From a virus: a stretch of DNA of 25,373 nucleotides. The notes beneath the pieces were generated by a model. It saw only the letters and a list, made by a program, of their open reading frames with translations. It was not told the origin of the DNA and did no database searches. Within the stretch, counting starts at the first letter, position 1; every line of letters begins with the position of its first letter. Shown in pieces: positions 8,829 through 25,314 of the stretch. The stretch is taken from positions 1-25,373 of IMG/VR virus record IMGVR_UViG_3300044984_000949; one strand, written 5' to 3'. Made by a program: the position numbers and the translations under genes.

Positions 8829-9652
8829 TCAGTTATTCCGTTGTAGACATTACATACATTCTTTGGTAGAGACTGCCGATACTGAACCCAACCATTGAAG
8901 TTCCCTGATCTCTCAGACGAAAGCAATGATGGCGAAGCTTGATGCTCGAACGGAGAAGCATGGACTGGCGTCGATGCGACTAAACGATCATAGATCAACA
9001 GCGCTTTCTCAAGTGACTCATCAGTCTTACGGTATGAAACCTGAGCGCACAACGATGCAGACAATTTGATGCACTCGTCAAGTGTGTACCGCTTCTTGTC
9101 TTCGTCAGACACATACGGAAGATGGTACTCGTCAACATACTTCAAGTCAGGCGTGTTGATTGAATAAAGGTCCCACATCGAATCCGCGAGCGCATGAATC
9201 TCAGGCTGAGCTGCAGGATGTCGGCGTAGATGGAAGAAGTTATCCCAGTCAGTGGCAGTAGCCACAACCTTGATGTGCGCCCACGGCTCGAGCATGCGGT
9301 TAGCAATCTGTTTGTGCAGACCCTGCTTGACCATTTCTTTTACGTTATAGATCGCTGAATCACGAGCTTCAATCCAAATCTGTTTGGCGTTATACAGAGC
9401 AGCTCCAGTAAGCTCTTCTGTTGCAGCCATGCCTGCTTGGTTCTTGCCCCAGAAGACAGGCCATGCTGGATTCTCCGTGACCTGCTTGATCATGGTCTCG
9501 ATAGGAATTGCGCGCGATGATGCGGCGTTCTTCGAGATCATTCGGTGAGTCATGAACTCCGAATGAATGAACCGAGGATACTCAAGTTCAAACGTCGTGA
9601 TGCGTTTGCCTGATGTTGAGATCGAGTCAGCGATGATTTTTGTTGTGATCAT
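8825..9652 (-). CDS. thyX: Flavin-dependent thymidylate synthase ThyX
   Basis: A 275-residue protein. It makes dTMP from dUMP using methylene-tetrahydrofolate and FAD/NADPH. The sequence THRMISKNAASSRA at residues 35-48 corresponds to the ThyX signature RHRxxSxNExSxR, with the first Arg and the Glu replaced, a variant I recall from phage ThyX proteins. Further support is the C-terminal sequence SPFEHQ followed by a segment ending in GWVQYRQ (the folate/FAD and dUMP-binding end of the family). Its ATG overlaps the stop of a 55-residue gene (ATGA). As ThyX can supply dTMP, the separate ThyA-fold enzyme at 22119-22868 is free for another role. Confidence 0.93.
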   Translation of the reverse strand: MITTKIIADSISTSGKRITTFELEYPRFIHSEFMTHRMISKNAASSRAIPIETMIKQVTENPAWPVFWGKNQAGMAATEELTGAALYNAKQIWIEARDSAIYNVKEMVKQGLHKQIANRMLEPWAHIKVVATATDWDNFFHLRRHPAAQPEIHALADSMWDLYSINTPDLKYVDEYHLPYVSDEDKKRYTLDECIKLSASLCAQVSYRKTDESLEKALLIYDRLVASTPVHASPFEHQASPSLLSSERSGNFNGWVQYRQSLPKNVCNVYNGITE

Positions 9653-10647: not shown

Positions 10648-12035
10648 GTCTTGAATCCAGTGAACTGTTTTCGTTCGGGCTTACCTGCGCTGAACGGTGT
10701 CTGCACGACATTTGATTGCGAGGACGACTCGTTCGCGATGTTAGCCATTGGGTCAGCAATGTCATACAACCGCATCTTAGCTCGATCAACACCGACCGTG
10801 AATCGCTTGTACTTGCCTACATCATTGTAACGATTCTTGAGTTGCTTAATCATGATCTGACCCATCTTCTCGAGTTGTTCAGTTGACATCAAGGCGATCA
10901 TCAAGTCCGCTGTTGCAGGAAGACCGAATGATTCAGACGTGTCCGTGATTTCAACGTCGGACGAGGCATACCCGGATCGAGTGACCTGCGTGGCTGACCA
11001 AATCGGAACATTGAACTCGACCGCCAAACCGCGAAGCTCTTCAGCAATCGACTTGATGAGCGAGTATGTACCGCCTTCAGCTCCACCTTTGATTCGAGAC
11101 GATGCACAAATGTTCAGGTAGTCGATGAAGATGATGTCAGGAACGAAGTTCTTCTTCAGCTTCAGTTCCATCAGGAGCGCCCGGAAGTGTCCGGCATGAG
11201 CAGCTCCTGTTGGATATTCCTTGATGATCAGCTTGCCGTGTGTCTTTGCAGCAATGCCTTTGATCTTGTGATTGAACATCTCCTTCGAGAGGTTCGTGAT
11301 CTGATCAATGTTGATGTCGAAGAGGTTAGCATCATTACGTTCAGCGATCTTTTCCTCCGCCATTTCCATCGTGATGTATAACACACTACGACCTTGGGCC
11401 ATCGCCGCAGCCGCGAGGTGACACATAGCGAGCGACTTACCCACGGCAGTACCTGCAAGAATGATGTTCAATGTCTTGCGCGATACACCGCCGTTCGTGA
11501 TCTTGTTCAACATGTCGATGTCGAACGCAATCTTATCCTCGACGCGGTGATAGTAATCATACCGCTTCTCCGCGTCCTCGAGGTAGTCGTGGCCTACGTT
11601 AGTGTCGAATGTTACTGCAAGCGCCTTCGAGAGGATGTCAGGAATCATCCCCTCCGCCTTACCTTCAGCCTTGCCGTCGATGATCTGAATCGACTCCATG
11701 ATTGCGATGTAGACTGCACGGTCCTTACACCACTTCTCGGTCGAGTCAACTAACCAATCATACTCAACAATCTCTGGCGTATCAACGTCGGAGATTAGTT
11801 TCGCGACGTTGATCGTGTCAGCGCCTACGTTATGATTTGATGCGCGGAATTCAATGTCAAGTACTGCAGAGTTAGGCAGCTTGTTATACTTGGAAATGAA
11901 CTTAAGAATCAGATCATAAACAACTCGATGCTCGCCCTCAAAGTATTCAGGCTTTATGTGTGGTAACGCCTTACGGCAGAATGTCTCATCATGGAGTAGT
12001 CCCTTTACGATTATCGTCTGTAAATTTGGTTGCAT
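10644..12035 (-). CDS. Replicative DNA helicase, DnaB/T4 gp41-like
   Basis: A 463-residue protein of the RecA-like hexameric helicases that unwind DNA 5' to 3' at the fork and work with primase. The N-terminal all-helical domain (residues 1-120) is followed by a RecA-type core with Walker A GTAVGKS (195-201) and Walker B IIFIDYLNI (301-309). A later SATQVTRSG corresponds to the H3/Q-type motif region. The length matches T4 gp41 (475 residues). It lies downstream of uvsX with two small genes between, placing replication and recombination genes in one transcript. Confidence 0.92.
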   Translation of the reverse strand: MQPNLQTIIVKGLLHDETFCRKALPHIKPEYFEGEHRVVYDLILKFISKYNKLPNSAVLDIEFRASNHNVGADTINVAKLISDVDTPEIVEYDWLVDSTEKWCKDRAVYIAIMESIQIIDGKAEGKAEGMIPDILSKALAVTFDTNVGHDYLEDAEKRYDYYHRVEDKIAFDIDMLNKITNGGVSRKTLNIILAGTAVGKSLAMCHLAAAAMAQGRSVLYITMEMAEEKIAERNDANLFDINIDQITNLSKEMFNHKIKGIAAKTHGKLIIKEYPTGAAHAGHFRALLMELKLKKNFVPDIIFIDYLNICASSRIKGGAEGGTYSLIKSIAEELRGLAVEFNVPIWSATQVTRSGYASSDVEITDTSESFGLPATADLMIALMSTEQLEKMGQIMIKQLKNRYNDVGKYKRFTVGVDRAKMRLYDIADPMANIANESSSQSNVVQTPFSAGKPERKQFTGFKT

Positions 12036-12324
12036 CTTTGCCTATATGTATTTCTTCACTTGATAGGATATCGGCAAGGATATCACCTATCATATTTCTA
12101 AACGCATCACTCGTCTCCAGATCTTCTGGTGCGAATGAGGTGTCACCTACATCTTCGATGCGGTAATCAAATGAGAGGACTGCAGTGTCGTTGCGCCGAT
12201 CCTCCCTAATAGAAACACGCCCATAAGTGTAAATAACACCAGCCCAATTGCCGGTCATCAATCGAATCGAGTAAAGAGTCGAATCGGCGTGTTCTACAAA
12301 ATTGTAATCTATTTCCTCTTCCAT
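11989..12324 (-). CDS. Unknown 111-residue acidic protein
   Basis: The frame is open from a TTG at 12372, but I choose the ATG at 12322-12324 (MEEEIDYNFVEHAD), 5 bases after the stop of the preceding gene. The protein is acidic, with a beta-rich first half and a C-terminal helix (DAFRNMIGDILADILSSEE). Its last 47 bases overlap the start of the helicase gene in another frame. I do not recognise it. Its position between uvsX and the helicase suggests a replication accessory role, as inference only. Confidence 0.65.
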   Translation of the reverse strand: MEEEIDYNFVEHADSTLYSIRLMTGNWAGVIYTYGRVSIREDRRNDTAVLSFDYRIEDVGDTSFAPEDLETSDAFRNMIGDILADILSSEEIHIGKDATKFTDDNRKGTTP

Positions 12325-12329
12325 GTAAA

Positions 12330-12620
12330 TCAAGAAATGGTTAGTCGAATGAAATTCCTGATGAGTGTCCAATTCACGGAGAACCTAACAGGCACGCCTA
12401 GCAGGCTACAGTTGAAGTTGGTTGCGTCACCAAAGCTCAACTCGTTTGCTAGGTTAGGCGACACCTCAACCATGACCTGGGTAGGCGCTTGCCTACCACG
12501 CTCAGCACTGTACTTGATAAGTTCATCTCGGATAAGTTGATGAACTTCATTAGTGCGTTCGCCTAACCATCTGACACGCGAGAATTCGATGTCGACTTGG
12601 ACTATCTTGGTGTTAGGCAT
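12330..12620 (-). CDS. Unknown 96-residue protein
   Basis: A 96-residue protein, MPNTKIVQVDIEF onwards. I choose the ATG at 12618-12620 rather than the one at 12650 because a strong AGGAGG lies 6 bases upstream of it; it overlaps the uvsX stop by 8 bases. The pattern is helix (ERTNEVHQLIRDELIKYSAE) then strands (TQVMVEVSP and LGVPVRFSVNW). No motif recognised. It is coupled to uvsX and probably co-expressed with it. Confidence 0.7.
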   Translation of the reverse strand: MPNTKIVQVDIEFSRVRWLGERTNEVHQLIRDELIKYSAERGRQAPTQVMVEVSPNLANELSFGDATNFNCSLLGVPVRFSVNWTLIRNFIRLTIS

Positions 12621-13689
12621 CTTCGTCCTCCTCATCCGTGTCAGGACCAACTTCGTCTGAGTCGTCTGAGATCATTTGACGAAGTCCGATCGTGTACTTG
12701 TTCGTGATGTAGTCCGCGAAGGGTTGATAGTTGACCAGTTCAGCAAAGTACGAATCAGGGATTGCCTTAGGACGAACCTTCGCAGTACCAAACTCTCCGG
12801 TCGCAAAGTCAAGCAACTGACAGAATTGGGCGGATGGCTTCTGAATGAAACCTGCTTCCAACGCAAGGTCAAGCAAACCTGAGTACTTGTCGATGCCGCC
12901 GTCCCATGAAACCGAAATCGGAATCTTGGACTTCTCCTTGACGAACCGGCTCTTCTCGACATTGATGACGAAGTGATAACCTTGAACCTCAGTACCTACC
13001 TTGTCTTGTTGACGACCGACGATCCAAATGTTGGATGCGGAGTAATAGATGCCAGTACCACCTGAGACGACTGCTTTCGGGAACAAGCCCATCTCTTGAT
13101 ATGTGTGGTTCACGGCCAAGCAAGGAACATCCTTGATCGTGAGGAACGGCGTGACCATACGGAACAAGCCTTTGATCGACTTTGCACGCGACATGTCCGT
13201 GACCGACTTCGCGTCGATTGCGTCCTCCAACTCCTTCTTCGATGCAAGGTTACCAATTGAGTCGATGATGATAATGACCTTGTCTTTCCGATCAAGGTTT
13301 TCAAGTTGGTTGACAAGGTCGAACTTCAGCTCCTCGACATCCTTGATAGGAATGTGTAGAACACGCGCAGGATCAATCCCGAACGATTCGAAGTATGCTT
13401 GAGGCGAACCGAATTCCGAATCATAGAACATCAGACATGCGTCCTTGTGCTTGTTCAGATATGCCGCGGCCATAAGCAACGCATAGCTTGTCTTGAAGTG
13501 TTTGGATGGACCTGCAAGAACAGTAAGGCCTGAAGCGAGACCACCGTTAAGTGAGCCTGAGAGCGCGACGTTGATCATCGGCACTGGCGTTGTCGTCAAC
13601 TCAACCTTTCCAAAGAAAGGTGAGTCACATAGGATCTCCGCGGATTTGACGCGGGAGTTCTTCTTGAGTTTGTCGAGTATTGCTGACAT
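12613..13689 (-). CDS. uvsX: UvsX-like RecA-family recombinase
   Basis: A 358-residue protein. It forms filaments on single-stranded DNA and drives strand exchange and recombination-dependent replication. The Walker A is GPSKHFKTS (60-68), the characteristic UvsX form, with Walker B KVIIIIDSIG (137-146). A highly acidic C-terminal tail (DTDEEDEDA) matches the regulatory tail of UvsX/RecA. T4 UvsX is about 391 residues, so this is slightly shorter. A 22-base gap separates it from the methyltransferase gene with no obvious promoter or ribosome site, so it may be read from the upstream transcript. Confidence 0.95.
   Translation of the reverse strand: MSAILDKLKKNSRVKSAEILCDSPFFGKVELTTTPVPMINVALSGSLNGGLASGLTVLAGPSKHFKTSYALLMAAAYLNKHKDACLMFYDSEFGSPQAYFESFGIDPARVLHIPIKDVEELKFDLVNQLENLDRKDKVIIIIDSIGNLASKKELEDAIDAKSVTDMSRAKSIKGLFRMVTPFLTIKDVPCLAVNHTYQEMGLFPKAVVSGGTGIYYSASNIWIVGRQQDKVGTEVQGYHFVINVEKSRFVKEKSKIPISVSWDGGIDKYSGLLDLALEAGFIQKPSAQFCQLLDFATGEFGTAKVRPKAIPDSYFAELVNYQPFADYITNKYTIGLRQMISDDSDEVGPDTDEEDEDA
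12627..12632 (-). promoter_or_regulatory. Strong Shine-Dalgarno site, AGGAGG
   Basis: The minus strand reads AGGAGG 6 bases before the ATG at 12618-12620. It lies within the acidic Asp/Glu tail codons of uvsX, and it decides the start of the 96-residue gene. Confidence 0.6.
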
Positions 13690-13711: not shown

Positions 13712-14962
13712 TTAGAAGAAGGAATCAAGGGACGCCGTAGTTTCCTTTTGGGCGTTGACTGAGATGACCGAGAAGTTTCGGTTAGACTGCTTGATGTAAT
13801 CGGAGTTAGAGAACTCGCAATCGTCGTTCAAGTATTGAAGAATGCCGTCCATCATGTCACGCGCAGTTGTCACCGGCACGTTCTGACAAATGTGGTTAGA
13901 CTTCGAAACAGGATTCTCGGACGCGAGATTGAAGTCCTCGGGCATACCCATGATTCGAAGACAATCACGAAGTGTTAGGAATGTCCCTGTGAATGGATTG
14001 ATTAACGAACCTGGCATTGCGCCGATCAACGATGGGATAGCACCCTTCGACATCGTGACGCCGTGCGACCAATAACCTTTGCCGTCATCAAGCTTGCCTT
14101 GCATTGCGCGTGCGCGCTTCGCGACATGCGAGAACGTAGGTTTGTCCTGTGCGTCCATCCAATCAGCAACCTCTGGGAGTGACTGACCGAAGTCGCCGTC
14201 CGCACCGTTGATGAGGTTCTGCGTTTCTTCGATGTAATCATAAACACCTTTGAGTGTTCCGCCGCCGACCTTCTCAACCGCGTATGCAACCCATGGGTTA
14301 TCCATTGGGTCCGCTTTGTTGATGAGAACATTCATTGGATCCTTCTTGAGTGTCTTCTTCTTGAGGATGTCCTCAACAGGATTGAGATCGCGTCTCCAGG
14401 TTTTGAAGATAGGAGCAACTTCGGATTGTGTGAAGAAGTAGAATGTACGCGGACGCTTCTGGCAAAGGCCATGCAGCTTAGACTCCGTGTAGTAAAGGTT
14501 GAGCGAATATCCGTACTTCTTACCGATTGCATGAAGCTTATCAGCAACGGGCTTACCGAACGATGAGAATAGACGCGGCGCGTTTTCTCCCCAGAAGACC
14601 TTGGGCTTCACGGTAGATAACACATACTCAGCCGAGGTGTAAAGCCATTCGTTCACGGGCGAATCAGCTGACGATGCAACGGACAACGACGACAAGCCTG
14701 CACACGGGCAAGTGCTCATGACAACATCAACCTGCTTTGGAACATAGTTCTCGAATGCAGGATCATCGATGACAGCATAGTCACCCGTGAATCCCTTAAC
14801 ATCACGGAGATATTTGATGTAGTGCGAATCGTTGTCGGCGAAAGGCGAATATGATAACACATACTCAGGCAGTTGCCCATTGAGTGCTGTCATAACACCC
14901 AGAGGTTCACCACCGATTAGCGGGATGATTGGCGCGTATGTAATTTTGGTTTGTTTATTCAT
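13712..14962 (-). CDS. C5-cytosine DNA methyltransferase
   Basis: A 416-residue protein with the ordered motifs of the family. Motif I is PLIGGEPLG (14-22), motif IV STCPCAGLSS (83-92, catalytic C87 after P86), motif VI GENAPR (125-130), motif VIII QKRPRTF (168-174). Motif IX-like RDCLRIMGMPEDF and motif X-like QNVPVTTARD are near the end. All catalytic residues look intact, so it should methylate C5 of cytosine in DNA. The region between motifs VIII and IX, about 150 residues, is the target-recognition domain and gives no readable specificity. It lies 20 bases downstream of the glycosyltransferase. A methylase beside a cytosine-hydroxylation and glycosylation pathway is unusual, since both would target C5. 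Confidence 0.9.
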   Translation of the reverse strand: MNKQTKITYAPIIPLIGGEPLGVMTALNGQLPEYVLSYSPFADNDSHYIKYLRDVKGFTGDYAVIDDPAFENYVPKQVDVVMSTCPCAGLSSLSVASSADSPVNEWLYTSAEYVLSTVKPKVFWGENAPRLFSSFGKPVADKLHAIGKKYGYSLNLYYTESKLHGLCQKRPRTFYFFTQSEVAPIFKTWRRDLNPVEDILKKKTLKKDPMNVLINKADPMDNPWVAYAVEKVGGGTLKGVYDYIEETQNLINGADGDFGQSLPEVADWMDAQDKPTFSHVAKRARAMQGKLDDGKGYWSHGVTMSKGAIPSLIGAMPGSLINPFTGTFLTLRDCLRIMGMPEDFNLASENPVSKSNHICQNVPVTTARDMMDGILQYLNDDCEFSNSDYIKQSNRNFSVISVNAQKETTASLDSFF

Positions 14963-14982
14963 TGGCTGATTTGATTTATAGG

Positions 14983-16224
14983 TTATAGAACGACGCCGGT
15001 GTACTGCTCGAGGTTCGTCTTGACGACGTTGTAAAGGAAGTCTCCGTTGAAGTAGCTGTCGTCAAGCATGTCATACAGCCGCTTCTGCACGAGCTTATAT
15101 GTCTCGGGATTCTCGTCAAGGAATTTGATTCGTTCCCACATATCCTTGGGTGTCTTAACTCGAAGGATAGCTGGCACGTTGAAGATGTTGTCGGTATCGT
15201 AATTTGGATGGAAGAACGGGATGATGCCATAGTAAATCATCTTCCAGAACTTTTGAGTTACGAAGTTTCCTGTTGGTTTATGCGGAGGCGCAATGATCGT
15301 GTAACGCGAATTGAGGAACACGTCCTCGACCGACCGGATACTCTTGTTCTCAAAGACATCGGGCCAACCCGTCGTGAACTCGTCCGCCCATTCGCCATAA
15401 ACCTTAATGCCCGTCGTATCACCCTTGAGAATCCAATCCTTGATGAACTCATCACGAGATAGACCGCCATTAAGGCCAATGACAAACTTGTTCGTCTTTG
15501 GACGGTCAAGCCATTCAATCTTTTTCTCGCCAAGCAGGAAGACAGTTTCGATTCCGGAGTAAATGTACTTCAGCTTGACGTCACGCAACGTCAACGACTC
15601 CTCGTATGACTTGATTCGTTTGCGCGCGTATGTTTGGTTGATTTGACTAAGCACTACCCGTTCATCATTGATGATATCGCGTGCGTATTGCGGAGCATAC
15701 TTAGGGTCTGAACATATTGAGATGAACGGCGTGTTCGTCCAATTGAGCGTATGCACAATGCCAGCATAGTACTTTTGAAACATCTCCAGTGTCTTCGCCT
15801 TTCCTTTTCCGTCAAGGCGTTCAATGCCTACATTAGGAATTCCCACGGCTGGCGTAGGTCCGATGAAAATAACACCTGCATCGAACTTCAGGTCCAGTCG
15901 ACGAATCTTTTCCTCGAGCCAAACATGATCATCAATCGTAACCTTGTTCGTCCAGTCGTCGAAGAGGTTGATTATGTTAGGCGGCAAACCTTCGTCGATT
16001 TCTTCCTCCTCAACTTCATCGAAGAAGGATGATAGCGAACCCGTCGTCTCCTTGTCACGCATCCGTGTAATGTCGGACCTGCCGATAAGATAGAACGTAT
16101 GCTCGGGATTTCTTTTCGCGAGGAGCCGATATAACATAGGCGCCTCTTCATCACCGGCCGTGAACCCACGACTGTTCGAGTTGAAGTAAATAGAGCGGCC
16201 TGTTTTGCCGATTAGAATATTCAT
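14983..16224 (-). CDS. Glycosyltransferase, probably GT-B type, candidate DNA glycosyltransferase
   Basis: A 413-residue protein. The N-terminal half has a Rossmann-like start (MNILIGKTGRSIYF) and an acidic insertion near 68-81. The C-terminal half has the pattern NKFVIGLNGGLSRDE (246-260), KVYGEWADEF (274-283), and PTGNFVTQKFWKMIYYGIIPFF (317-338, pieces given), typical of the donor-sugar site in GT-B enzymes. I cannot fix the family or sugar from sequence. It is translationally coupled (ATGA) to the sugar kinase-nucleotidyltransferase gene and precedes the cytosine methyltransferase, so the favoured role is moving the cluster's sugar onto modified cytosine in phage DNA. An alternative is glycosylation of a virion protein or host surface polymer. 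Confidence 0.8.
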   Translation of the reverse strand: MNILIGKTGRSIYFNSNSRGFTAGDEEAPMLYRLLAKRNPEHTFYLIGRSDITRMRDKETTGSLSSFFDEVEEEEIDEGLPPNIINLFDDWTNKVTIDDHVWLEEKIRRLDLKFDAGVIFIGPTPAVGIPNVGIERLDGKGKAKTLEMFQKYYAGIVHTLNWTNTPFISICSDPKYAPQYARDIINDERVVLSQINQTYARKRIKSYEESLTLRDVKLKYIYSGIETVFLLGEKKIEWLDRPKTNKFVIGLNGGLSRDEFIKDWILKGDTTGIKVYGEWADEFTTGWPDVFENKSIRSVEDVFLNSRYTIIAPPHKPTGNFVTQKFWKMIYYGIIPFFHPNYDTDNIFNVPAILRVKTPKDMWERIKFLDENPETYKLVQKRLYDMLDDSYFNGDFLYNVVKTNLEQYTGVVL

Positions 16225-17804
16225 GATAGTGTCGAGACTAGGTATTTGTTCAGTAGATGTTTGCCAAGATAGAATAGGTATAGCGAGTAAGGATACTCAT
16301 GAAGCGCTGCGATGTTCAGGAAGATTAGTGCGGTAAGCAATCTCACGCGCGATGCGTCATAATTATTCTCCTTCAGCCACTTCACGAACGTCTCCTCAGC
16401 TTCGACTAAACGGTGTGGCCGTAAAATATCTATCGTGATGTTATTCGAGGAATCTCGCTCGACCGTAAAGTGGTTGCACAAAATCTGATGGTGAGAAACA
16501 ATGAGCCCGTGCATGAACTTAGCGAAGTCATAGTATGCATCGCCGATGTCTAGGTTATCATACCCAAAGTTTTGGCGCCAGTCGATCAGCATTGGATTGC
16601 CGGACGGCGTGACTAGAATGTTTTCGTTGTGGAAGTCGCCATGATACTTCGAGGCATGCGGATGATCACATAGGTCGCGCCAATCAACGCGATTAAGCAG
16701 CACATACATTGGCGGAATCGTCACGCCGTTAATCGTGTCCACCGTGTCAACACACTCAAAGACGTCGAAGAATTGTTGGACACGCTTGAACGTCTTATCA
16801 CGGTAGAACGAATAACACGCCTCGACGAGTTCAGGCGTAGCATTCGAAGTGTTATCCCACATCTCCTTCTTCGCGAAGTCGAGGATGTCGATGACGTTAG
16901 TCCCATTGAGTGTCTTGCTTACAACATCGCCGACGATTCGGTTATAGACGTAGAGGTTCTTGTCAACGTGGATCAGTGAAGGAAAGATTTGATTGCCCAA
17001 TCCTTGAAGGCGCTTGACTCGATCAGCAATGAACTTATCGTCAACACTGAACTTGATCACGCGGTTATCGTAAAACCAGATAGCCTCATCATTCTTGTGA
17101 ACGATGTTGAACTCGTGAGTCTCTAGCAGTTCACGCGTCTTAAGAAGTGATTCGACGTTCCCGGTGTCGCACCATGATGGGACAGGAATCGCTTTGATGT
17201 TATTGAGAAACTTAAGCCCGTATGATTCGCCGACAGGAATCGCACGCGGGTTGTCCATGCTCTTCCAGAAACCGTCATAATCTTTGACACCGCATAGACC
17301 AACATAAATGTTAGGGCATACGATTCCCTTCGGGTTGATGTTTGTCACAACACCGTTGTCAATCTCGACGGTGCGGTAGACCGACGTGTTAAACGAGTCA
17401 GCTTTTGTCGCGGTATAGTAAGCCATCCAATTGCCCGTGATGTTAGGGTCAAGATCAATGACTTCATCAGGAATGATTGTGTCGTTCGAGATGAATATGA
17501 ATGGGCACTGCAACAGATGTTCGGCGCATCCTAACGTAAGACCAAGTCCGGATCCTTCACCTTGATAAAGCTCGACGTCAACGAAAGAGATCTTACGGTC
17601 AGGATAGATCGCCTCGAGCGATTGCCTTACGTAAGATCCGTGATGACCTAATAACACAACGATCTCGACGTCCTTCTTGAACTTGTCGATGACGTGCGAG
17701 ATGACAGGCTTGTTGCCAATCGTGATTAGTGCTTTGTTGATGTTAGGCGAATGCGCGGCGACGCGTGAACCTAACCCGGCAGATGGGATTACGACTTTAT
17801 ACAT
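16221..17804 (-). CDS. Fused sugar-phosphate nucleotidyltransferase and APH/choline-kinase-type sugar kinase
   Basis: A 527-residue two-domain protein. Residues 1-225 form a nucleotidyltransferase with the signature SAGLGSRVAAHSPNINKALI (8-27) and an NDT motif at 107-109, as in enzymes that make NDP-sugars from sugar-1-phosphates. Residues 235-500 are an APH-family kinase: HGDFHNENIL (388-397, catalytic Asp D390) and LIDWRQ (406-411, metal D408). The combination could phosphorylate a free sugar at C1 and activate it on the same chain, as a NahK-type kinase plus GlmU-type pyrophosphorylase would do. Coupled to the epimerase (TAATG) and glycosyltransferase (ATGA). Choline or another amino-alcohol substrate is the main alternative. 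Confidence 0.85.
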   Translation of the reverse strand: MYKVVIPSAGLGSRVAAHSPNINKALITIGNKPVISHVIDKFKKDVEIVVLLGHHGSYVRQSLEAIYPDRKISFVDVELYQGEGSGLGLTLGCAEHLLQCPFIFISNDTIIPDEVIDLDPNITGNWMAYYTATKADSFNTSVYRTVEIDNGVVTNINPKGIVCPNIYVGLCGVKDYDGFWKSMDNPRAIPVGESYGLKFLNNIKAIPVPSWCDTGNVESLLKTRELLETHEFNIVHKNDEAIWFYDNRVIKFSVDDKFIADRVKRLQGLGNQIFPSLIHVDKNLYVYNRIVGDVVSKTLNGTNVIDILDFAKKEMWDNTSNATPELVEACYSFYRDKTFKRVQQFFDVFECVDTVDTINGVTIPPMYVLLNRVDWRDLCDHPHASKYHGDFHNENILVTPSGNPMLIDWRQNFGYDNLDIGDAYYDFAKFMHGLIVSHHQILCNHFTVERDSSNNITIDILRPHRLVEAEETFVKWLKENNYDASRVRLLTALIFLNIAALHEYPYSLYLFYLGKHLLNKYLVSTLS

Positions 17805-18496
17805 TACTGGAGAAATGATTTGATGCGTTGCATGTTCGTGCGGATGATCGCTTCTTGGGTTTCCCAGTTTGTGTTGCGATCTACGTTCTTATATATAGTG
17901 CCCGTCCCGCCGACGAATGAATCAACGCCGTCGTTCCTAAATTGTTCGAAGGTGTCGAAGTTAAGAGCGCCGTCGATTTGGATCTCGACGTTAGGATAAA
18001 CCGAGAGGAAGCCGAATATGTCATCAGTAACTGTTTCAGGACGTGCCGTTTGAACGAGTACACCAGGATGAATACCCATGAACATCACGAGGTCAAGTTC
18101 TCCGTTGTCAATCAAGCGGTGCAACGCGTAGAGCGGCATGTCAAGGTTCATGACAAGGCCTGGCCGTGCTCCTTTTTCACGAATCTTGTCCATGAGGTAA
18201 AGCGCTCGCCCTTCATTACCGTTCAAGTGGAATGTTACTGTCCTGACCTTCGAGATATCGAACTGACTAATCGCGAACTCGACATCCGACACCATGAGGT
18301 GAAGGTCAAGCGGGAGGTCAGTGATGGTCGCGATGCGTGCAACCTGCTCAGGATAGACACCATAACGAGGAACGGCATGGCCGTCCATTGCGTCGAGGTG
18401 GAGGTAGTCGACTCCGAGTTCAGCACACAACCGAACATCGCGTTCGAGGTTGAGGTGATCCATGCATATAACTGATGCGCCGAAGATAGGTTTCAT
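17804..18496 (-). CDS. rpe: Ribulose-phosphate 3-epimerase-like protein
   Basis: A 230-residue TIM-barrel protein. It should interconvert D-ribulose-5-phosphate and D-xylulose-5-phosphate. Expected metal ligands and catalytic acids are present: H33 and D35 in YLHLDAMDGHAVP (31-43), H66 in DLHLM (64-68), D175 in IQIDGAL (172-178). The usual NPGFGGQ loop reads HPGVLVQ (143-149), so phosphate-loop contacts differ and substrate specificity may be shifted. An allulose- or other hexulose-phosphate epimerase of the same fold is possible. Start and stop both overlap neighbours by one base (TAATG). Phage-encoded copies in such a cluster suggest routing of a pentulose phosphate into the sugar pathway. 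Confidence 0.88.
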   Translation of the reverse strand: MKPIFGASVICMDHLNLERDVRLCAELGVDYLHLDAMDGHAVPRYGVYPEQVARIATITDLPLDLHLMVSDVEFAISQFDISKVRTVTFHLNGNEGRALYLMDKIREKGARPGLVMNLDMPLYALHRLIDNGELDLVMFMGIHPGVLVQTARPETVTDDIFGFLSVYPNVEIQIDGALNFDTFEQFRNDGVDSFVGGTGTIYKNVDRNTNWETQEAIIRTNMQRIKSFLQ

Positions 18497-19020
18497 TATT
18501 CGAGGATTGAGTGATTATGAGTCGTGAACTCAGGGTCTAGGTTTAGTTTTGATGAAAGCTCCATGACGATGTGATCATATAACAGCATCGAGAATTGTTC
18601 GTAAGCCGACTTCATCAGCTGAACCGAATTGATTTTCGGGAGAGGAATAACTTCATGTGATAGTCTGCCGATGGACGACATCGGGTTGCACGTCGTCGTG
18701 TAAACACGCGAACCTGCGTCACGGGCTTGCTTAACATACAAAAGGATCGACGGAGTTTCACCTGATGAACTGTTCACGAGCACGATATCATTCGCGGTGA
18801 TAAGAGGGACGTTCGTGTCGCCTATCATGCTTGCGTTGAAACCCATGTGATTGAGGCGCATGATGAATGCTCGCAACGCGTATCCCATACGACCCGCCGC
18901 GAGACCTACGATAGCTGGCTTGGATATTAACCTATACGCGAGAGAGTTAACGTATGTCTGAACTTCTTTTGTGTCGAGGGCGTCGCCCATTCGAGTCATT
19001 TCGTCGAGGATGATCTTCAT
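18496..19020 (-). CDS. SIS-domain sugar-phosphate isomerase (arabinose-5-P isomerase or 6-phospho-3-hexuloisomerase-like)
   Basis: A 174-residue single SIS domain. GRMG (43-46), RAFIMRLNHMGF (50-61) and SSSGET (84-89) are the sugar-phosphate binding motifs, and E141 after a conserved helix is a likely catalytic base. Sequence feel is closest to 6-phospho-3-hexuloisomerase, but the KdsD family (D-ribulose-5-P to D-arabinose-5-P) is closely similar and single-domain KdsD enzymes without CBS domains exist. With a ribulose-5-P epimerase on one side and a KdsC-like phosphatase on the other, the arabinose-5-phosphate reading fits best. GmhA-type heptose isomerase is a less likely alternative. Coupled by ATGA to the phosphatase and TAATG to the epimerase. 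Confidence 0.85.
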   Translation of the reverse strand: MKIILDEMTRMGDALDTKEVQTYVNSLAYRLISKPAIVGLAAGRMGYALRAFIMRLNHMGFNASMIGDTNVPLITANDIVLVNSSSGETPSILLYVKQARDAGSRVYTTTCNPMSSIGRLSHEVIPLPKINSVQLMKSAYEQFSMLLYDHIVMELSSKLNLDPEFTTHNHSILE

Positions 19021-19529
19021 AGTAGTCTTAGGTCTTTAAGTAGGGCATCAAGTTCATTGGGGAACCAGGTGCTGATAGTATATAGTGCTGCTTCAAGAAG
19101 GACACCGTTACCGCCGCGGGCTTTGCAGTTGTGCTTAGCATATTGTCGAACGAAGTCAGGCGCGTTCGATGGAGAGAACGAGAATGAACAATCCGCGAGG
19201 AGGGCCGCGTCGAAAATGCCATCACCGATGAAGCATGTATCGCCTAACACAAACTTATCTGCGACAAACCGATATCGGTTGTTCTCAGTAACATATTCAA
19301 TGGGGACATTCATGTCATTCATCCTCGCTAGCGTGATTGGAAACCCACGCTTATCCGCCGAGATCGCATAGACAGCAATTCCCAAACGACGAAAGATCTT
19401 GACACCGTCAGAATCATGCGGCCCAAAGACCTTGTGCGTTTTACCGTCAGGGGAATAATGAAATGAACCGTCCGTGAGGACACCATCAACGTCGGTGACG
19501 ACGTGCCTGAAAGGACATGTTATGTTCAT
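19017..19529 (-). CDS. KdsC-like HAD phosphatase
   Basis: A 170-residue protein of the HAD C0 (capless) group. DVDGVLTDG (13-21) gives the nucleophile D13 and acid D15; ISADKRG (56-62) gives the second-motif Ser; GDGIFD (102-107) is the metal motif; GGNGVLLE (139-146) matches the KdsC C-terminal glycine loop. KdsC normally removes phosphate from Kdo-8-phosphate, but no KdsA or KdsB is seen here. In this cluster it probably removes the 5-phosphate of a pentose (or related sugar) so the kinase can rephosphorylate C1. That is inference. Coupled by ATGA to both neighbours. Confidence 0.88.
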   Translation of the reverse strand: MNITCPFRHVVTDVDGVLTDGSFHYSPDGKTHKVFGPHDSDGVKIFRRLGIAVYAISADKRGFPITLARMNDMNVPIEYVTENNRYRFVADKFVLGDTCFIGDGIFDAALLADCSFSFSPSNAPDFVRQYAKHNCKARGGNGVLLEAALYTISTWFPNELDALLKDLRLL

Positions 19530-19894
19530 GCTTTGCGTGTCATGCGGTTAAGAAAATCTCGCGAAGGATCTTGGCCATCAATCTTGCCGCGAGAGTATGA
19601 GACACCGAAGGCAAGGTAATTGATTGCATCCTTGCATGAGTCTTCGAACGATTCGAAGTTGGGGACGTAGTTAGGATCGTTCTCCATCGCTTCGATGACG
19701 GACCTCATGCGGAGAACCTTGGCATGCACGATGTCAAGTATCGTCGCAACGCCTGCAGGATAATAGTCCGCTTGTCGAATACGCGAGTGCGGATTCTGAT
19801 AATCGTTCCCCTTCTTTTCCATCGTTGCACGGCACTCGTCAAGGACGCGCATCGCTTCGGTTTCTTTTACTGTGTTAACGCTGAGTATTTCCAT
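19526..19894 (-). CDS. Nmad1/MazG-like all-alpha protein, possible nucleotide pyrophosphatase
   Basis: A 122-residue helical protein, first gene of the modification operon. The conserved pieces KKGNDYQNPHSRIRQADYY (27-45), KVLRMRSVIEAM (59-70) and ESFEDSCKDAINY (81-93) match the nucleotide-modification-associated domain 1 (DUF1599) pattern, related to all-alpha NTP pyrophosphatases. Acidic residues E81, E84, D85 and D89 could bind metal. Known relatives occur next to phage base-modification genes. A dCTP pyrophosphatase role, like T4 gp56 feeding dCMP to the hydroxymethylase, would fit the pathway but is inference. Its ATG lies 7 bases after a near-consensus -10 box, so the mRNA is probably leaderless. 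Confidence 0.7.
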   Translation of the reverse strand: MEILSVNTVKETEAMRVLDECRATMEKKGNDYQNPHSRIRQADYYPAGVATILDIVHAKVLRMRSVIEAMENDPNYVPNFESFEDSCKDAINYLAFGVSYSRGKIDGQDPSRDFLNRMTRKA

Positions 19895-19901
19895 TTTTAT
19901 G

Positions 19902-19930
19902 ATTATACACTATTGGACGTCATATGTAAA
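19902..19930 (-). promoter_or_regulatory. Sigma70-type promoter of the sugar/DNA-modification operon
   Basis: On the minus strand: TTTACA (19925-19930), 17 bases, TATAAT (19902-19907), then 7 bases to the ATG at 19892-19894. The -10 box is exact and the -35 box has five of six consensus bases. The distance predicts a transcript start at or beside the start codon. It follows the NADAR gene stop and heads the cluster 19.9-13.7 kb. Confidence 0.85.
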
Positions 19931-19935
19931 TAACA

Positions 19936-20463
19936 TTATGACATGAAAGAGTCGAGCGTGCTTTGAGCAAACCGCGCGCGCATTTCCATCAGTAGTCTGC
20001 CTAAATGATTTGAGCCTGTCTCCTTCCTGATGTCCCAGCCCCAGAACGTGTCGTTCCAGTTGTTGAACTCAATGATAGGATCGGCTTGGGTTTGCATAAG
20101 CTTCTCGTGCCATGACGTGCCTGGCAAGAACTTCCAGTTGAGCGCATACTGCATTGTTCGGAGCTTGCGGCCCGTCGTCCAATCCTGCATCACGACAAAC
20201 TTGTCAGGTTCCCTCCGGAAGCATGCCTTCGACTTAGGCGGGCTCATGCTTGCAATCTCGACGCGCAACTCGCGCCGGTATGCCTCAATCTTTGAAGCTT
20301 GGTAAAAATTCTCGACCGAGAAGTATGTTATTCCGTCAACGACAAGCGGGTGATCGAATGGTAACATGTTCGAGAACCAATTGTCCACGTACCCATCAGG
20401 ACGAAACTTGATTGTCTTCAATAATGCGGGAGATATCTCGAAAGGCACTTTGGGTGTATGCAT
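19936..20463 (-). CDS. NADAR-domain protein (YbiA-like)
   Basis: A 175-residue protein of the NADAR (DUF1768) family. The signatures are DNWFSNMLPF (27-36), YFSVENFYQASK (47-58), IIEFNNWNDTFWGWD (130-144) and GSNHLGRLLMEMR (150-162). NADAR proteins cleave the N-glycosidic bond of ADP-ribose-type substrates; some reverse guanine ADP-ribosylation of nucleic acid made by DarT-type toxins. In a phage this suggests a counter-defence or NAD-salvage role. The gene starts 68 bases inside the previous frame, with only a weak AAGAG near the ATG. Last gene before the next operon's promoter. Confidence 0.88.
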   Translation of the reverse strand: MHTPKVPFEISPALLKTIKFRPDGYVDNWFSNMLPFDHPLVVDGITYFSVENFYQASKIEAYRRELRVEIASMSPPKSKACFRREPDKFVVMQDWTTGRKLRTMQYALNWKFLPGTSWHEKLMQTQADPIIEFNNWNDTFWGWDIRKETGSNHLGRLLMEMRARFAQSTLDSFMS

Positions 20464-20731
20464 TAGCTCTTATTTCGTTTTCAGATCTGTCTGTAGGTAA
20501 ACCAAAGTCAGATCCAATAGTTGGCGCTATCTTACTGATGTTGCACAACCCAATCTTGTTGATGTCAATCGGAAGACGTGTTATCGCGCGAACTCTAACG
20601 AAGTACATTCGCATGATTTCCGTGAGTCGACTTCTCGTTAGTTCATCGTTGAACTCGCCGATGAAACTTTCGATGTCGGTCGTTAACATATCGGACAAGT
20701 CAACGATTTCTTGGAGGTCTTCTTTATGCAT
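20396..20731 (-). CDS. Unknown 111-residue helical protein
   Basis: A 111-residue acidic, mostly helical protein starting MHKEDLQEIVDLSDML. It overlaps the HAD gene stop by 8 bases and its own C-terminus overlaps the NADAR start by 68 bases, an unusually deep overlap here. The C-terminal part (RSENEIRANAYTQSAFRDI) would still be present if the NADAR protein began a little later. No domain recognised. Confidence 0.6.
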   Translation of the reverse strand: MHKEDLQEIVDLSDMLTTDIESFIGEFNDELTRSRLTEIMRMYFVRVRAITRLPIDINKIGLCNISKIAPTIGSDFGLPTDRSENEIRANAYTQSAFRDISRIIEDNQVSS

Positions 20732-21110
20732 TGTTTCCGAATAGTAAGAGTTCTACTGCGTCCCAGTCAACGAAAGGACGTTCATCTTTAAAGCCTGGCT
20801 TCATGGGACAACCAAGCGCGGCATCATCGATGTAAATCTTTGCATACGCCTTAGGACTAGTCGTCCATGTGTACTGGCCTGGGTTTACCTGAATACCGTA
20901 GAGCGGAATATCATTCTCGTCAAACCAAGCAAGCGCATCATCGAGATGTTCGCCGCTTCGCATTGTCCATAAGATAAGCTTACCGCCCTCAGCAACAATA
21001 CGATGCAACACTTTCTGTGCACCGATGAATCGACCGACCTTCGGATATTCGTGTGTTACGCAAGTTCCATCGAAGTCAACCGCAATAGGATCACCTTTCT
21101 TAAACAGCAT
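20724..21110 (-). CDS. Small phage HAD-superfamily hydrolase
   Basis: A 128-residue protein. DFDGT (12-16) holds the nucleophile D12 and acid D14; WTMRSG (48-53) is motif II; a Lys in SPKAYAKIYIDDAALG and the Asp pair D95-D96 give motifs III and IV. This compact form, with NPGQYTWTTSPK before the last motif, is common in phages and usually annotated as a HAD hydrolase or phosphatase of unknown substrate. It is distinct from the KdsC-like enzyme at 19017-19529. A nucleotide or nucleic-acid 3'-phosphate is possible but not shown. Confidence 0.85.
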   Translation of the reverse strand: MLFKKGDPIAVDFDGTCVTHEYPKVGRFIGAQKVLHRIVAEGGKLILWTMRSGEHLDDALAWFDENDIPLYGIQVNPGQYTWTTSPKAYAKIYIDDAALGCPMKPGFKDERPFVDWDAVELLLFGNNA

Positions 21111-21865: not shown

Positions 21866-22122
21866 GCGTTTTTGATTGCCGGGGTGATTAGAGTTCCGTC
21901 GCCATTATGAGTAAGCCAAAACATAAACTCGTGAGCGTCAAGCTTGGACTGATCAATATTTCCATACTGTAACATCAGGCCTGCGAGGAATTGTGTTAGG
22001 AGCATAACTCCGCGTGTGTTAGGCTGGCGCTCGCTTCTGATCTTGCCTAATAGCTGATCAAGCTCAGCCTCAACCTCTGCCTTGGTGATGATGTCTTCAC
22101 GATGTTGTTCAGCCATGTTCAT
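21862..22122 (-). CDS. Unknown 86-residue helical protein
   Basis: An 86-residue protein, MNMAEQHREDIITKAEVEAE onwards, predicted all-helical with a hydrophobic helix GVMLLTQFLAGLMLQYG too short and polar-flanked to be a confident membrane segment. It follows the ThyA-fold gene by an ATGA overlap and could act with it, but no family is recognised. Confidence 0.65.
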   Translation of the reverse strand: MNMAEQHREDIITKAEVEAELDQLLGKIRSERQPNTRGVMLLTQFLAGLMLQYGNIDQSKLDAHEFMFWLTHNGDGTLITPAIKNA

Positions 22123-22868
22123 TTGTAAAGCTTGTTATAGTTTTCGAGCGTGATGTGGTGTTCGCCCGTCTTCGCGAAGTGATCGAGCAAATAGAATTGG
22201 CGTTGGTAGACGTGCAACGATGACACCTGCCAATGAACATCACCTAGCTCATATAAGCTGTTGAAACGTGGCGCATTCAAAGCATAAAGCACAAACTTCT
22301 GAACGAAGAGTTGCCAAGCCAGGTCATTGCGGAAGCCTGCCCATGCGTCGTTAGAGCGCATCTGAACGATCACGTGCAGTCGATTGTTGCGAATGATGTA
22401 CTGCACGGCGTTCGTGCAAACGAAATCTTGCATGCCATTCGTGTTGAAATCAACATGCATTGTCGGCCGCGTGTAGATCATTGTTGCACGTCGAGACGAC
22501 GGCGACTGCAATAGCGTGTCGATGACATTGCAAACCTGTGCACCGTTTTCTTTGGAGAAGATGAGGTACCCGTAGTTCGAGTTGATGAGACCATCAGGAG
22601 AAGCAACCGCCTTCCAGATCTTAGGCACCTCGCCAGGAATGTCATTCACGTTGAGCGACTTCGAGATGTACCAATCAATCTCGTTTTGGATGTAAGGATA
22701 GTTGGGTACACCAAAGATTGCAGACTCGTCAGCAATGAATGAAGCGCCGAGGATCTCGACTGTATCAGCACCGGACAACGAACCTGTGTCATTTGTTACG
22801 ATATCTCCTCTTAGGTATTTTTCAACGAATGCTTGCCGAATGTCGGCAACTTTATAGATTGGTAGCAT
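22119..22868 (-). CDS. ThyA-fold enzyme, probable dCMP hydroxymethylase
   Basis: A 249-residue protein of the thymidylate synthase fold. SSRRATMIYTRP (124-135) binds the phosphate; FVCTNAVQY (149-157) holds the nucleophile C151; RSNDAWAGFRNDLAW (171-185) aligns with RSCDVFLGLPFNIAS of ThyA. The residue that binds the base is Asn177 in E. coli ThyA and Asp179 in T4 dCMP hydroxymethylase; here it is D182, exactly 31 residues after the Cys in all three. Asp at this site selects cytosine. The product would be 5-hydroxymethyl-dCMP or a related dCMP derivative. The His after the Cys (PCH in ThyA) is Thr. ThyX at 8825-9652 covers dTMP synthesis. Confidence 0.82.
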   Translation of the reverse strand: MLPIYKVADIRQAFVEKYLRGDIVTNDTGSLSGADTVEILGASFIADESAIFGVPNYPYIQNEIDWYISKSLNVNDIPGEVPKIWKAVASPDGLINSNYGYLIFSKENGAQVCNVIDTLLQSPSSRRATMIYTRPTMHVDFNTNGMQDFVCTNAVQYIIRNNRLHVIVQMRSNDAWAGFRNDLAWQLFVQKFVLYALNAPRFNSLYELGDVHWQVSSLHVYQRQFYLLDHFAKTGEHHITLENYNKLYK

Positions 22869-22875
22869 ATTAGTA

Positions 22876-22904
22876 ATTATATCACATTCTTCGTGCGTTG
22901 TAAA
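22876..22904 (-). promoter_or_regulatory. Sigma70-type promoter of the ThyA-fold operon
   Basis: On the minus strand: TTTACA (22899-22904), 17 bases, TATAAT (22876-22881) preceded by TGA as an extended -10, then 7 bases to the ATG at 22866-22868. The -10 box contains the stop codon of the upstream gene. The predicted mRNA has essentially no leader. Confidence 0.85.
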
Positions 22905-23619: not shown

Positions 23620-24222
23620 ATGGTTATGTACATCGTGTATGAAACTACTAATTTAGAGACTGGCAAAATTTACATTGGTGTTCATAGAAATGGCGGAGAT
23701 CATGATGACTATCTTGGTTCAGGCACTCTAATCTCTAGAGCAATCAAGAAACACGGAAGATCAAAATTCAAAAGAGTTACGCTTCATGAGTTTGACAACG
23801 CGACTGAAGCATATGCTAAAGAACGTGAATTAGTAACAGATGAATTCATCTCAAGTGGAAATGTGTATAACTTAAAACCAGGCGGGCTTGGTGGATTTAC
23901 TAGAGAGAATGGTCAGCGGCTTGTTGGCAAATTTGGGAAAGAGCATCCGGCATCATGCAAGCGATCTGATGAATCACGCAGACGAATATCTGTTGCTAAG
24001 AAAGGAATGACATTCTCAGACGAGCATAGGAAAAATTTGTCTATTGCTAAATTGGGATCTTCTGCTTCCGATGCTACTCGTAGAAAAATGTCTATAAGTT
24101 CAAAGCGGCATACATCAAAGAAGATTGAATACTCCGGCAAGACCTTCTCTAGCATTATTGAAGCAGAGCAGCTTACCGGAGTATCGCGTTATCTTTTGCT
24201 CAAACACGGATCACTTCTGTGA
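23620..24222 (+). CDS. GIY-YIG homing endonuclease with NUMOD-type DNA-binding repeats
   Basis: The only plus-strand gene, 200 residues from the ATG at 23620-23622 (a TTG at 23608 in frame would add four). A GGAAA lies upstream of the ATG. The N-terminus MYIVYETTNLETGKIYIG carries the GIY-YIG motif, with YLGSG and the catalytic Glu in AKERELV following. The centre has two NUMOD3-like repeats (DESRRRISVAKKG, DEHRKNLSIAKLG) and the end a NUMOD1-like segment (FSSIIEAEQLTGVSR). It is visibly more A+T-rich than its neighbours, consistent with recent transfer. Its stop overlaps the 3' end of the RNA ligase gene by 12 bases in a convergent arrangement. Confidence 0.93.
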   Translation: MVMYIVYETTNLETGKIYIGVHRNGGDHDDYLGSGTLISRAIKKHGRSKFKRVTLHEFDNATEAYAKERELVTDEFISSGNVYNLKPGGLGGFTRENGQRLVGKFGKEHPASCKRSDESRRRISVAKKGMTFSDEHRKNLSIAKLGSSASDATRRKMSISSKRHTSKKIEYSGKTFSSIIEAEQLTGVSRYLLLKHGSLL

Positions 24223-25285: not shown

Positions 25286-25314
25286 ATTATATCAAATTTT
25301 GGTGAGGATGTAAA
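25286..25314 (-). promoter_or_regulatory. Sigma70-type promoter of the RNA ligase gene
   Basis: On the minus strand: TTTACA (25309-25314), 17 bases, TATAAT (25286-25291) with a TGA giving an extended -10, then 7 bases to the ATG at 25276-25278. Spacer and ATG distance are identical to the promoters at 22876-22904 and 19902-19930. Confidence 0.85.

Follow-up and report, generated by a model that had tools for sequence, protein, structure and literature searches.

A predicted sugar-biosynthesis operon at the b-gt position of a T4-like phage and its candidate role in glycosylation of hydroxymethylcytosine in DNA

In phage T4, hydroxymethylcytosine in DNA is glucosylated by a system that comprises gp42, b-gt and a-gt and that draws on UDP-glucose of the host. 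Arabinosyl-hydroxy-cytosine of phages is reportedly the subject of a 2025 paper. In the phage group of RB69 a distinct enzyme, 5-hydroxy-dCMP synthase, has been described (PMC13390438), and the Shewanella phage Thanatos carries a sugar, in the form of a pentose modification, on cytosine (PMC12838424). The present study concerns a whole viral record, IMG/VR record IMGVR_UViG_3300044984_000949 of 25,373 bases (hereafter the window), in which a run of seven minus-strand genes encodes, in this order, an Nmad1-like protein, a HAD phosphatase, a SIS isomerase, a 3-epimerase, a fused nucleotidyltransferase-kinase (NT-kinase), a glycosyltransferase and a C5-cytosine methyltransferase (C5-MTase)-like protein. 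We propose, with a probability of roughly 0.8, that this phage makes a dedicated nucleoside diphosphate (NDP)-sugar and places it on hydroxymethylcytosine in its DNA. Such a system would represent a novel variation on the DNA glycosylation known from T4, in which arabinose is less likely than a sugar other than arabinose.

The phage is T4-like and probably marine, the latter because Pseudoalteromonas phage XG4 (seawater) and SAR86 are its closest relatives among those whose source is stated or whose habitat is known. An assembly artefact is unlikely to be the source of the gene run, since an 83,186-bp IMG/VR contig, a long copy of the same phage, agrees with the window over 19,150 bp (99.995%), and since the same gene order is found on other contigs.

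The acceptor base and the glycosyltransferase

The modified base is most likely hydroxymethylcytosine and not the hydroxycytosine of RB69, since the hydroxymethylase encoded in the window is close to T4 gp42 (117 of 213 residues identical, 55%) and shares only 24.7% identity with the RB69 homologue ORF048c. Both the catalytic Cys (in FVCTN) and the Asp (in GFRND) that stands in place of the Asn of thymidylate synthase align with those of T4, and from this close homology the enzyme is predicted to make 5-hydroxymethyl-dCMP from dCMP. The diagnostic residue was Asp in all nine related loci inspected by tblastn (L131, L132, L135-L137, L158-L161; numbers of this kind, including L010, L012 and L099 below, are labels of compared contig loci). 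The hydroxymethylase gene lies outside the range 13712-19894 covered by an earlier, first-pass annotation of this DNA and was absent from its account.

The glycosyltransferase gave no Pfam, PHROG or NCBIfam match at the thresholds used, and structural comparison with phage DNA glycosyltransferases, as the first-pass annotation had recommended, places T4 DNA beta-glucosyltransferase (BGT) first in the PDB. An AlphaFold2 model built with 15 sequences (pLDDT 83.4, pTM 0.83) retrieved BGT at ranks 1-6 in a Foldseek search (best E 2.8e-10), and in a structural comparison T4 BGT reached Z 21.8 (315 residues, rmsd 4.1), followed by the next family at Z 18.8 and T4 AGT at Z 17.3. A viral structure library gave an uncharacterised protein of a myovirus as the top match (1.5e-33), followed by a protein annotated as DNA beta-glucosyltransferase (4.4e-26). 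At the profile level, hhalign gave E 1.3e-4 (probability 54) to BGT and E 0.061 to AGT, while BGT was the top, albeit weak, hmmsearch match in the PDB (E 0.074). The position of the gene also corresponds to that of T4: the T4 order is 42, b-gt, segA, uvsX, 40, 41, and the window has, in one direction, hydroxymethylase, sugar operon, glycosyltransferase, MTase-like gene, uvsX and helicase, so that the glycosyltransferase gene takes the place that b-gt has in T4, after gene 42 and before uvsX.

A survey of this slot was made through homologues of the MTase-like gene, which were found in at least 80 loci; one of these is the long copy of the present phage, and the other 79 were examined. Among the matches listed, 42 of the 79 loci have a hydroxymethylase gene upstream in addition to the MTase-like gene. 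Their slot holds a window-type glycosyltransferase in 14 cases, an AGT-type enzyme in 21 and neither in seven, but never both; after thinning at 95% MTase identity these numbers become 10, 10 and five. Over all 79 listed loci the corresponding counts are 17, 36 and 26, again with none carrying both. The other 37 listed loci gave no hydroxymethylase match, many of them being short fragments. All five AGT-type proteins tested match PF11440, and the remaining ones were classed as AGT-type because they resemble these five. The sugar genes within the slot differ as well: some loci have HAD plus NT-kinase, some a cytidylyltransferase-like protein together with a larger protein that contains HAD, some sugar dehydratase/epimerase genes, and in others none was detected. 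The prediction that the window glycosyltransferase acts on DNA is strongly supported by its BGT fold, its place in the b-gt slot and, as the strongest evidence, its exchange with AGT-type DNA glucosyltransferases. Together with the hydroxymethylase, these observations support the first-pass proposal of a dedicated nucleotide-sugar pathway that feeds glycosylation of DNA cytosine.

The C5-MTase-like protein scores 28.2 bits against TIGR00675, under the cut-off of 100.65. Residues C87, E126, Q168, R170, R172 and Q360-N361-V362-P363 are identical in all 81 aligned sequences (near-duplicates included), and each residue of the first motif, PLIGG, is found in 78 of the 81. As its gene often adjoins that of the hydroxymethylase, a part in DNA modification is suggested; the protein is not required as a source of the acceptor, which the hydroxymethylase can supply. 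A post-replicative origin of the acceptor, through 5-methylcytosine, TET-like oxidation and glycosylation with the gp42 homologue otherwise employed, would make use of the catalytic Cys, Glu and Arg that the adjacent MTase-like gene retains. It is nevertheless highly improbable, as no Pfam match to TET or 2-oxoglutarate-Fe(II) (2OG-Fe(II)) oxygenases occurs among the 20 window proteins scanned (of 34 open reading frames), and as a gp42-type gene lies upstream in the 42 loci mentioned. One relative, L135, has two tandem C5-MTase-like copies at 10834-13259, followed by dehydratase/epimerase-like and cytidylyltransferase-like genes and then uvsX.

The donor site was compared at BGT residues R195, R269 and E272 (numbers counted on the glycosyltransferase-BGT alignment), which we take to be donor-site residues; they align with R257, K325 and K328 of the window protein. 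Among 33 glycosyltransferases, near-duplicates included, the E272 position holds Glu in 20, Lys in nine and Ser in four. All 13 enzymes without Glu come from loci with SIS and epimerase genes, whereas neither the SIS nor the epimerase proteins of the cassette found a match at E<=0.01 in the stretches of the 20 Glu-type enzymes; a smaller search yielded a partial epimerase match (E 0.004-0.005) in Planchet and 9183, both phages of Enterococcus. In T4 AGT a conserved GT-B Glu touches the nucleotide ribose (PMC6024577). Since Glu is absent only where SIS and epimerase genes occur, and since its AGT counterpart contacts the ribose, the comparison suggests that the non-Glu enzymes may use a donor nucleotide or sugar other than UDP-glucose. 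The 13 sequences form one clade (support 0.998 in a midpoint-rooted FastTree tree) and may reflect a single event.

The sugar operon and the candidate sugar

The sugar genes (Table 1) can be considered to belong together, because their order is conserved on several viral contigs. From the Nmad1-like gene through the glycosyltransferase gene, neighbours overlap by 1-4 nt; 20 nt separate the glycosyltransferase gene from the C5-MTase-like gene, and 22 nt the latter from uvsX. The first-pass description of a coupled gene run behind one promoter was thus accurate, both for the minus-strand open reading frames and for the exact TTTACA-N17-TATAAT sequence. Its family labels stood at the family level (PF00834, SIS, APH, PF00145 and KdsC-type HAD), except that the SIS protein is of HxlB type and not of KdsD type.

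Table 1. Predicted features of the locus, with window coordinates and supporting matches
Feature	Position	Strand	Basis
UvsX recombinase	12613..13689	minus	phrog_97 1.4e-81; T4 synteny landmark after b-gt
C5-cytosine methyltransferase-like protein	13712..14962	minus	PF00145 3.1e-14, 53.6 bits (cut-off 22)
BGT-like (GT-B) DNA glycosyltransferase, predicted	14983..16224	minus	predicted fold, position, replacement pattern
Fused sugar-1-phosphate nucleotidyltransferase (N-terminal) and APH-type sugar kinase (C-terminal)	16221..17804	minus	phrog_4098 1.9e-20
Ketose-phosphate 3-epimerase, Rpe/AlsE family	17804..18496	minus	PF00834 1.3e-34
SIS sugar-phosphate isomerase, 6-phospho-3-hexuloisomerase (HxlB) type	18496..19020	minus	TIGR03127 1e-33; SIS family 2.2e-8
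KdsC-type HAD phosphatase	19017..19529	minus	NF058599 6.5e-22, TIGR01670 2e-16, both below cut-off
Nmad1 (DUF1599)-like protein	19526..19894	minus	PF07659 matched by 11 of 13 family members (best 4.7e-8), not by the window member
Sugar operon promoter, TTTACA-N17-TATAAT	19902..19930	minus	exact match; 7 nt from -10 box to Nmad1 ATG
Small HAD phosphatase, phrog_1238 / BT0820 type	20724..21110	minus	phrog_1238 3.8e-29; NF046079 6.7e-21
dCMP 5-hydroxymethylase, T4 gp42 type	22119..22868	minus	T4 dCMP hydroxymethylase in PDB, 3.8e-75
Promoter of hydroxymethylase gene run, TTTACA-N17-TATAAT	22876..22904	minus	exact match; 7 nt from -10 box to ATG
Promoter of RNA ligase gene (24211-25278), TTTACA-N17-TATAAT	25286..25314		exact match; 7 nt from -10 box to ATG

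The Nmad1-like gene, which in many relatives lies near the hydroxymethylase gene, possibly encodes a nucleotide-pool enzyme; a search of its family profile against solved structures found no relative (best E 0.41). In the HAD phosphatase, the motifs D13-V-D15-G-V17-x-T19-x-G21 and G102-D-G-x-x-D107 are invariant in the three sequences aligned. The small HAD phosphatase of the hydroxymethylase gene run could be a second sugar phosphatase. Small HAD genes adjoin the NT-kinase gene in RB69, XG4 and Denvervirus and match one another, and the window protein gave no blastp match to these three at E<=0.01.

The SIS protein scores 116.7 bits against the HxlB profile TIGR03127 (cut-off 160) and 21.5 bits against the KpsF/GutQ profile (cut-off 203.7). 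Its PDB matches are YckF (2.3e-22) and MJ1247 (2.2e-18), and a C-terminal NHSILE is invariant in three of three sequences. Since its relatives likewise stay under the HxlB cut-off (109.5-118.3 bits), together they look like a distinct subfamily, with HxlB as the nearest family and not as an equivalog. The epimerase has H33, D35, H66 and D175, presumably the catalytic residues, which are invariant in all seven sequences aligned, including E. coli Rpe and AlsE. By sequence it stands between Rpe and allulose-6-phosphate 3-epimerase (AlsE), with scores of 115.9 bits for TIGR01163 (Rpe; equivalog cut-off 212.6) and 111.2 bits for NF007266 (AlsE; 271); the epimerases of L012, L099 and L131 likewise score slightly higher with Rpe. 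In the PDB, AlsE is the best match both for the single sequence (4.6e-24) and for the profile (6.3e-35, versus 5.3e-33 for the best Rpe), and the loop GGTGT/CGTST/GGTSS is closer to GTSG of AlsE than to GSA of Rpe. For the NT-kinase, Pfam gave NTP_transf_3 at 2.3e-5 (below cut-off) and APH at 6.2e-6 (26.6 bits, cut-off 23.2). Residues K24, D108, W211-x-D213-x-G215, H388-G-D390, N395 and D408 are invariant in seven of seven sequences, and the putative role of the C-terminal APH-type domain is phosphorylation of the free sugar at C1, as by an anomeric kinase of NahK type.

From these assignments the following pathway can be proposed, in which the order of the sugar steps comes from the enzyme classes. 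First, the gp42-type enzyme would make 5-hydroxymethyl-dCMP, which would be phosphorylated, by a kinase not found here, and incorporated into DNA. Secondly, the 3-epimerase and SIS isomerase would start from a common ketose phosphate and produce an unusual aldose phosphate, from which the HAD phosphatase would release the free sugar; the C-terminal kinase would then phosphorylate its anomeric carbon, and the N-terminal nucleotidyltransferase would activate the product to an NDP-sugar. Finally, as suggested by its fold, its position and the AGT-type replacement, the BGT-like glycosyltransferase would move the sugar onto hydroxymethylcytosine in DNA. The purpose is most likely resistance to host nucleases or other bacterial defences.

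Which sugar is made depends on the substrates of the epimerase and the isomerase. The favoured, yet tentative, candidate is a hexose derived from fructose-6-phosphate, which an AlsE-like epimerase would convert to allulose-6-phosphate and the SIS protein to allose-6-phosphate or altrose-6-phosphate, leading to NDP-allose or NDP-altrose and to DNA. This route fits the closeness of the epimerase to AlsE in the PDB searches and in the loop. The namesake HxlB acts on hexulose-6-phosphates, which also counts in favour of the route, but HxlB shifts the carbonyl between C3 and C2, not between C2 and C1, which counts against the route, as does the slight lean of the NCBIfam scores, all under their cut-offs, towards Rpe. 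In addition, a wastewater contig (L010) has an epimerase gene beside a SIS gene that scores above the HxlB cut-off (181.3 versus 160 bits), and this pair adjoins genes that by eye are mannitol-1-phosphate-dehydrogenase-like and of the phosphotransferase system (PTS).

The first-pass annotation had favoured D-arabinose, made as in RB69 from ribulose-5-phosphate by way of D-arabinose-5-phosphate (KdsD-like SIS), arabinose, arabinose-1-phosphate and NDP-arabinose. The SIS scores do not bear out this KdsD-type chemistry, and arabinose was dropped as the leading reading on the SIS type and the epimerase scores. We regard arabinose as possible but unlikely. It is consistent with RB69, which has arabinosylated DNA, a fused protein of the nucleoside triphosphate (NTP)-transferase type and a KdsD-like SIS gene (PMC6024577; RB69 gene table), with the NCBIfam preference for Rpe, and with the predicted epimerase named in the arabinosylating Mosigvirus cluster (PMC13390438). 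Against this, RB69's SIS protein is of KdsD type and that of the window is not; neither the epimerases nor the SIS proteins of the cassettes found a match at E<=0.01 in the RB69 stretch; and ribulose-5-phosphate, present in any host, would make a dedicated epimerase superfluous. Moreover, the bacterial SAR86 genome that carries a related cassette (see below) has a second Rpe-family gene, by eye an ordinary Rpe, so that the cassette epimerase presumably does something other than Rpe. Another pentose appears slightly more doubtful than arabinose, and so, to the same degree, does any sugar outside these classes; a rare hexose (allose or altrose) and a pentose are about as likely as each other.

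Distribution of the sugar genes and alternative targets

Related loci were sought in scans with alignments of the cassette proteins. The epimerase scan yielded 28 rows, and 26 loci remained once two contigs that were already known had been set aside. HAD, SIS, epimerase and NT-kinase genes occur in that order in 11 of the 26 (L131, L132, L134-L138, L140-L142, L145). L133 starts inside the SIS gene, and both L133 and L134 are cut off upstream. Epimerase and NT-kinase genes are found in L143 and L149-L157, with a SIS match after the NT-kinase in six, and the epimerase alone in L144 and L146-L148. In L149, L152-L154, L156 and L157 the order is epimerase, NT-kinase, SIS, and no match to the window glycosyltransferase was found within the stretch. 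A relative of the glycosyltransferase lies beside the cassette in L131 and L133-L138 (55-56% identity) and in L140-L142 and L145 (27-30%), and the contigs of the latter four each carry a thymidylate synthase (TS)-family gene elsewhere. Hydroxymethylase matches adjoin the cassette in six of the eight loci L131-L138 (L131, L132, L135-L138), and hydroxymethylase, glycosyltransferase and MTase-like genes all accompany it in L012, L131, L135, L136, L137 and L138. L012, a 262-kb contig, has the HAD, SIS, epimerase, NT-kinase, glycosyltransferase, MTase-like and hydroxymethylase genes together. Some contigs are near-duplicates, as L133 and L134 are identical over the glycosyltransferase and L136-L138 are 94-97% identical. 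Among 50,697 phage records, matches numbered four for the NT-kinase, five for the glycosyltransferase, five for SIS and 42 for the epimerase; many SIS and epimerase matches sit in unverified wastewater or faecal records, which may be bacterial DNA.

The four sugar genes are also present on a contig of a SAR86 single-cell genome (L099), with 36% (HAD), 60% (SIS), 46% (epimerase) and 43% (NT-kinase) identity to the window proteins. There they lie between housekeeping genes and a polysaccharide locus with Wzz and UDP-glucose/GDP-mannose dehydrogenase, which gives the module the appearance of a portable unit for sugar synthesis. The 60% SIS identity hints at gene exchange between SAR86 and the phage, and perhaps at a host. 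The SIS profile at E<=1e-20 matched three of 369 genomes of the class of SAR86 (the SAR86 genome itself and two at ~1e-23) and one of 203 genomes of the order, the same SAR86 genome. Two neighbours of the second SAR86 epimerase, by eye AmgK/MurU-like, were compared with the NT-kinase profile by hhalign, which matched the nucleotidyltransferase part at 9.3e-10 and gave no notable match for the kinase part (0.26). In a more specific version of our proposal, hydroxymethylcytosine would bear a rare hexose such as D-allose or D-altrose. A portable module of epimerase, isomerase, phosphatase, kinase and nucleotidyltransferase, found also at a bacterial locus for surface glycans, would make this sugar from fructose-6-phosphate, and the BGT-like enzyme that transfers it would have a nucleotide pocket adapted to a donor different from UDP-glucose. 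This version is slightly more doubtful than the hexose route itself.

The SAR86 locus raises the question whether the operon glycosylates a virion protein or surface glycan instead of DNA. In the same direction point the marine virus AG-345-E15, whose 66-kb record has an NT-kinase relative among several sugar genes and no TS-family match, and ten further contigs with NT-kinase relatives and no hydroxymethylase in the stretch. We consider such a target improbable, since it is the glycosyltransferase that differs: the SAR86 stretch has no match to the window enzyme, and the phage enzyme has the fold, position and replacement pattern of a DNA glucosyltransferase. The hydroxymethylase gene, moreover, is present in the stretch in six of the eight loci L131-L138, and the remaining two are cut off upstream.

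Several observations weigh against glycosylation of DNA by a dedicated NDP-sugar. The sugar half, present also on the SAR86 chromosome, is not DNA-specific, and the stretches of L120-L129, which make up ten of the 11 new rows in the NT-kinase scan (29-36% identity), have no match to the glycosyltransferase, the hydroxymethylase or, apart from the NT-kinase, any gene of the cassette, SIS and epimerase included. The sequence similarity between glycosyltransferase and BGT is weak, GT-B folds are common, and at the position of BGT E272 the window enzyme carries Lys. The structure model of the NT-kinase is of low quality (pLDDT 59.8), and the C5-MTase-like gene has no assigned role in the pathway. 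Finally, a T4-type deoxynucleoside monophosphate (dNMP) kinase (PF21448) was not found in any of the five contigs searched, all possibly incomplete; in L012 a kinase-like gene adjoins the cassette (AAA_18 5.1e-4, below cut-off).

If the proposal is correct, phages are able to place an entire module for sugar biosynthesis at the old locus of b-gt and thereby change the sugar coat of their DNA, with glycosyltransferases and sugar cassettes being interchangeable in one slot. The DNA sugar chemistry of uncultured phages would then be predictable and testable from sequence, new DNA-glycosylating enzymes could be obtained, and a route is suggested by which phages may outrun modification-dependent restriction.

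Expression signals and comparison with described systems

The exact promoter sequence is common to the hydroxymethylase gene and the sugar operon. With up to two mismatches it was found six times in the window (shuffle mean 1.70), a number reached by one of 100 shuffles, whereas a general sigma-70 scan of the region was close to chance (19 sites, shuffle mean 15.6), with the two in-region promoters as its two top sites. A Shine-Dalgarno core was present upstream of only one of the 33 genes examined. In combination with the 7-nt spacing at all three exact promoters, this makes it likely that their messages are leaderless or nearly so, and perhaps early.

Directly upstream of the sugar operon lies a NADAR-domain gene (19936-20463; PF08719 2e-16) with a possible role in counter-defence or in NAD/ADP-ribose metabolism. 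The phage further has a ThyX-type thymidylate synthase gene (8825-9652; PF02511 2e-13) in addition to the gp42-type enzyme, and a cytidyltransferase-like gene (671-1495; phrog_395 9.3e-64) that has matches in several related viral loci. In several relatives (L019-L028) the UvsX or helicase matches come in two or three pieces, which suggests inteins or introns there, not in the window.

A literature search of titles and abstract openings, with subscription journals mostly outside its scope, found no sugar operon with an HxlB-type SIS protein and a 3-epimerase in a hydroxymethylcytosine phage. With RB69 and Mosigvirus the locus shares a TS-family base enzyme and HAD, NT-kinase and SIS genes near uvsX. 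The first-pass analogy with RB69 breaks down at the base, which is made there by 5-hydroxy-dCMP synthase instead of a hydroxymethylase (PMC13390438), and at the type of SIS protein. When ten RB69 proteins were compared with those of the window, a direct match was seen for the TS-family protein only, and the NT-kinases are linked solely via relatives in XG4 and Planchet. Thanatos offers an indirect link to the fused NT-kinase family, as its TH1_060 is 53.2% identical to RB69 ORF052_053c; it differs in that TH1_063 has been demonstrated to act as a UDP-xylose pyrophosphorylase, and the accessible main text of that paper does not contain the words isomerase, epimerase or kinase (PMC12838424).

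The Enterococcus phages 9183 and Planchet and phage XG4 have a glycosyltransferase relative (26-31%) beside a fused NT-kinase and HAD gene, with a TS-family enzyme nearby and, in XG4, an MTase-like gene; unlike in the window, searches of the stretches read with the cassette proteins found neither SIS nor epimerase at E<=0.01. XG4 and Denvervirus are two phage groups other than that of the window in which the glycosyltransferase relative adjoins a fused NT-kinase, with a TS-family enzyme near. With T4 itself the window phage shares the gp42-type hydroxymethylase, the predicted BGT-fold glycosyltransferase and the slot between gene 42 and uvsX, to which it adds a sugar operon for which five activities are predicted, a C5-MTase-like gene and the Lys at the E272 position of BGT.

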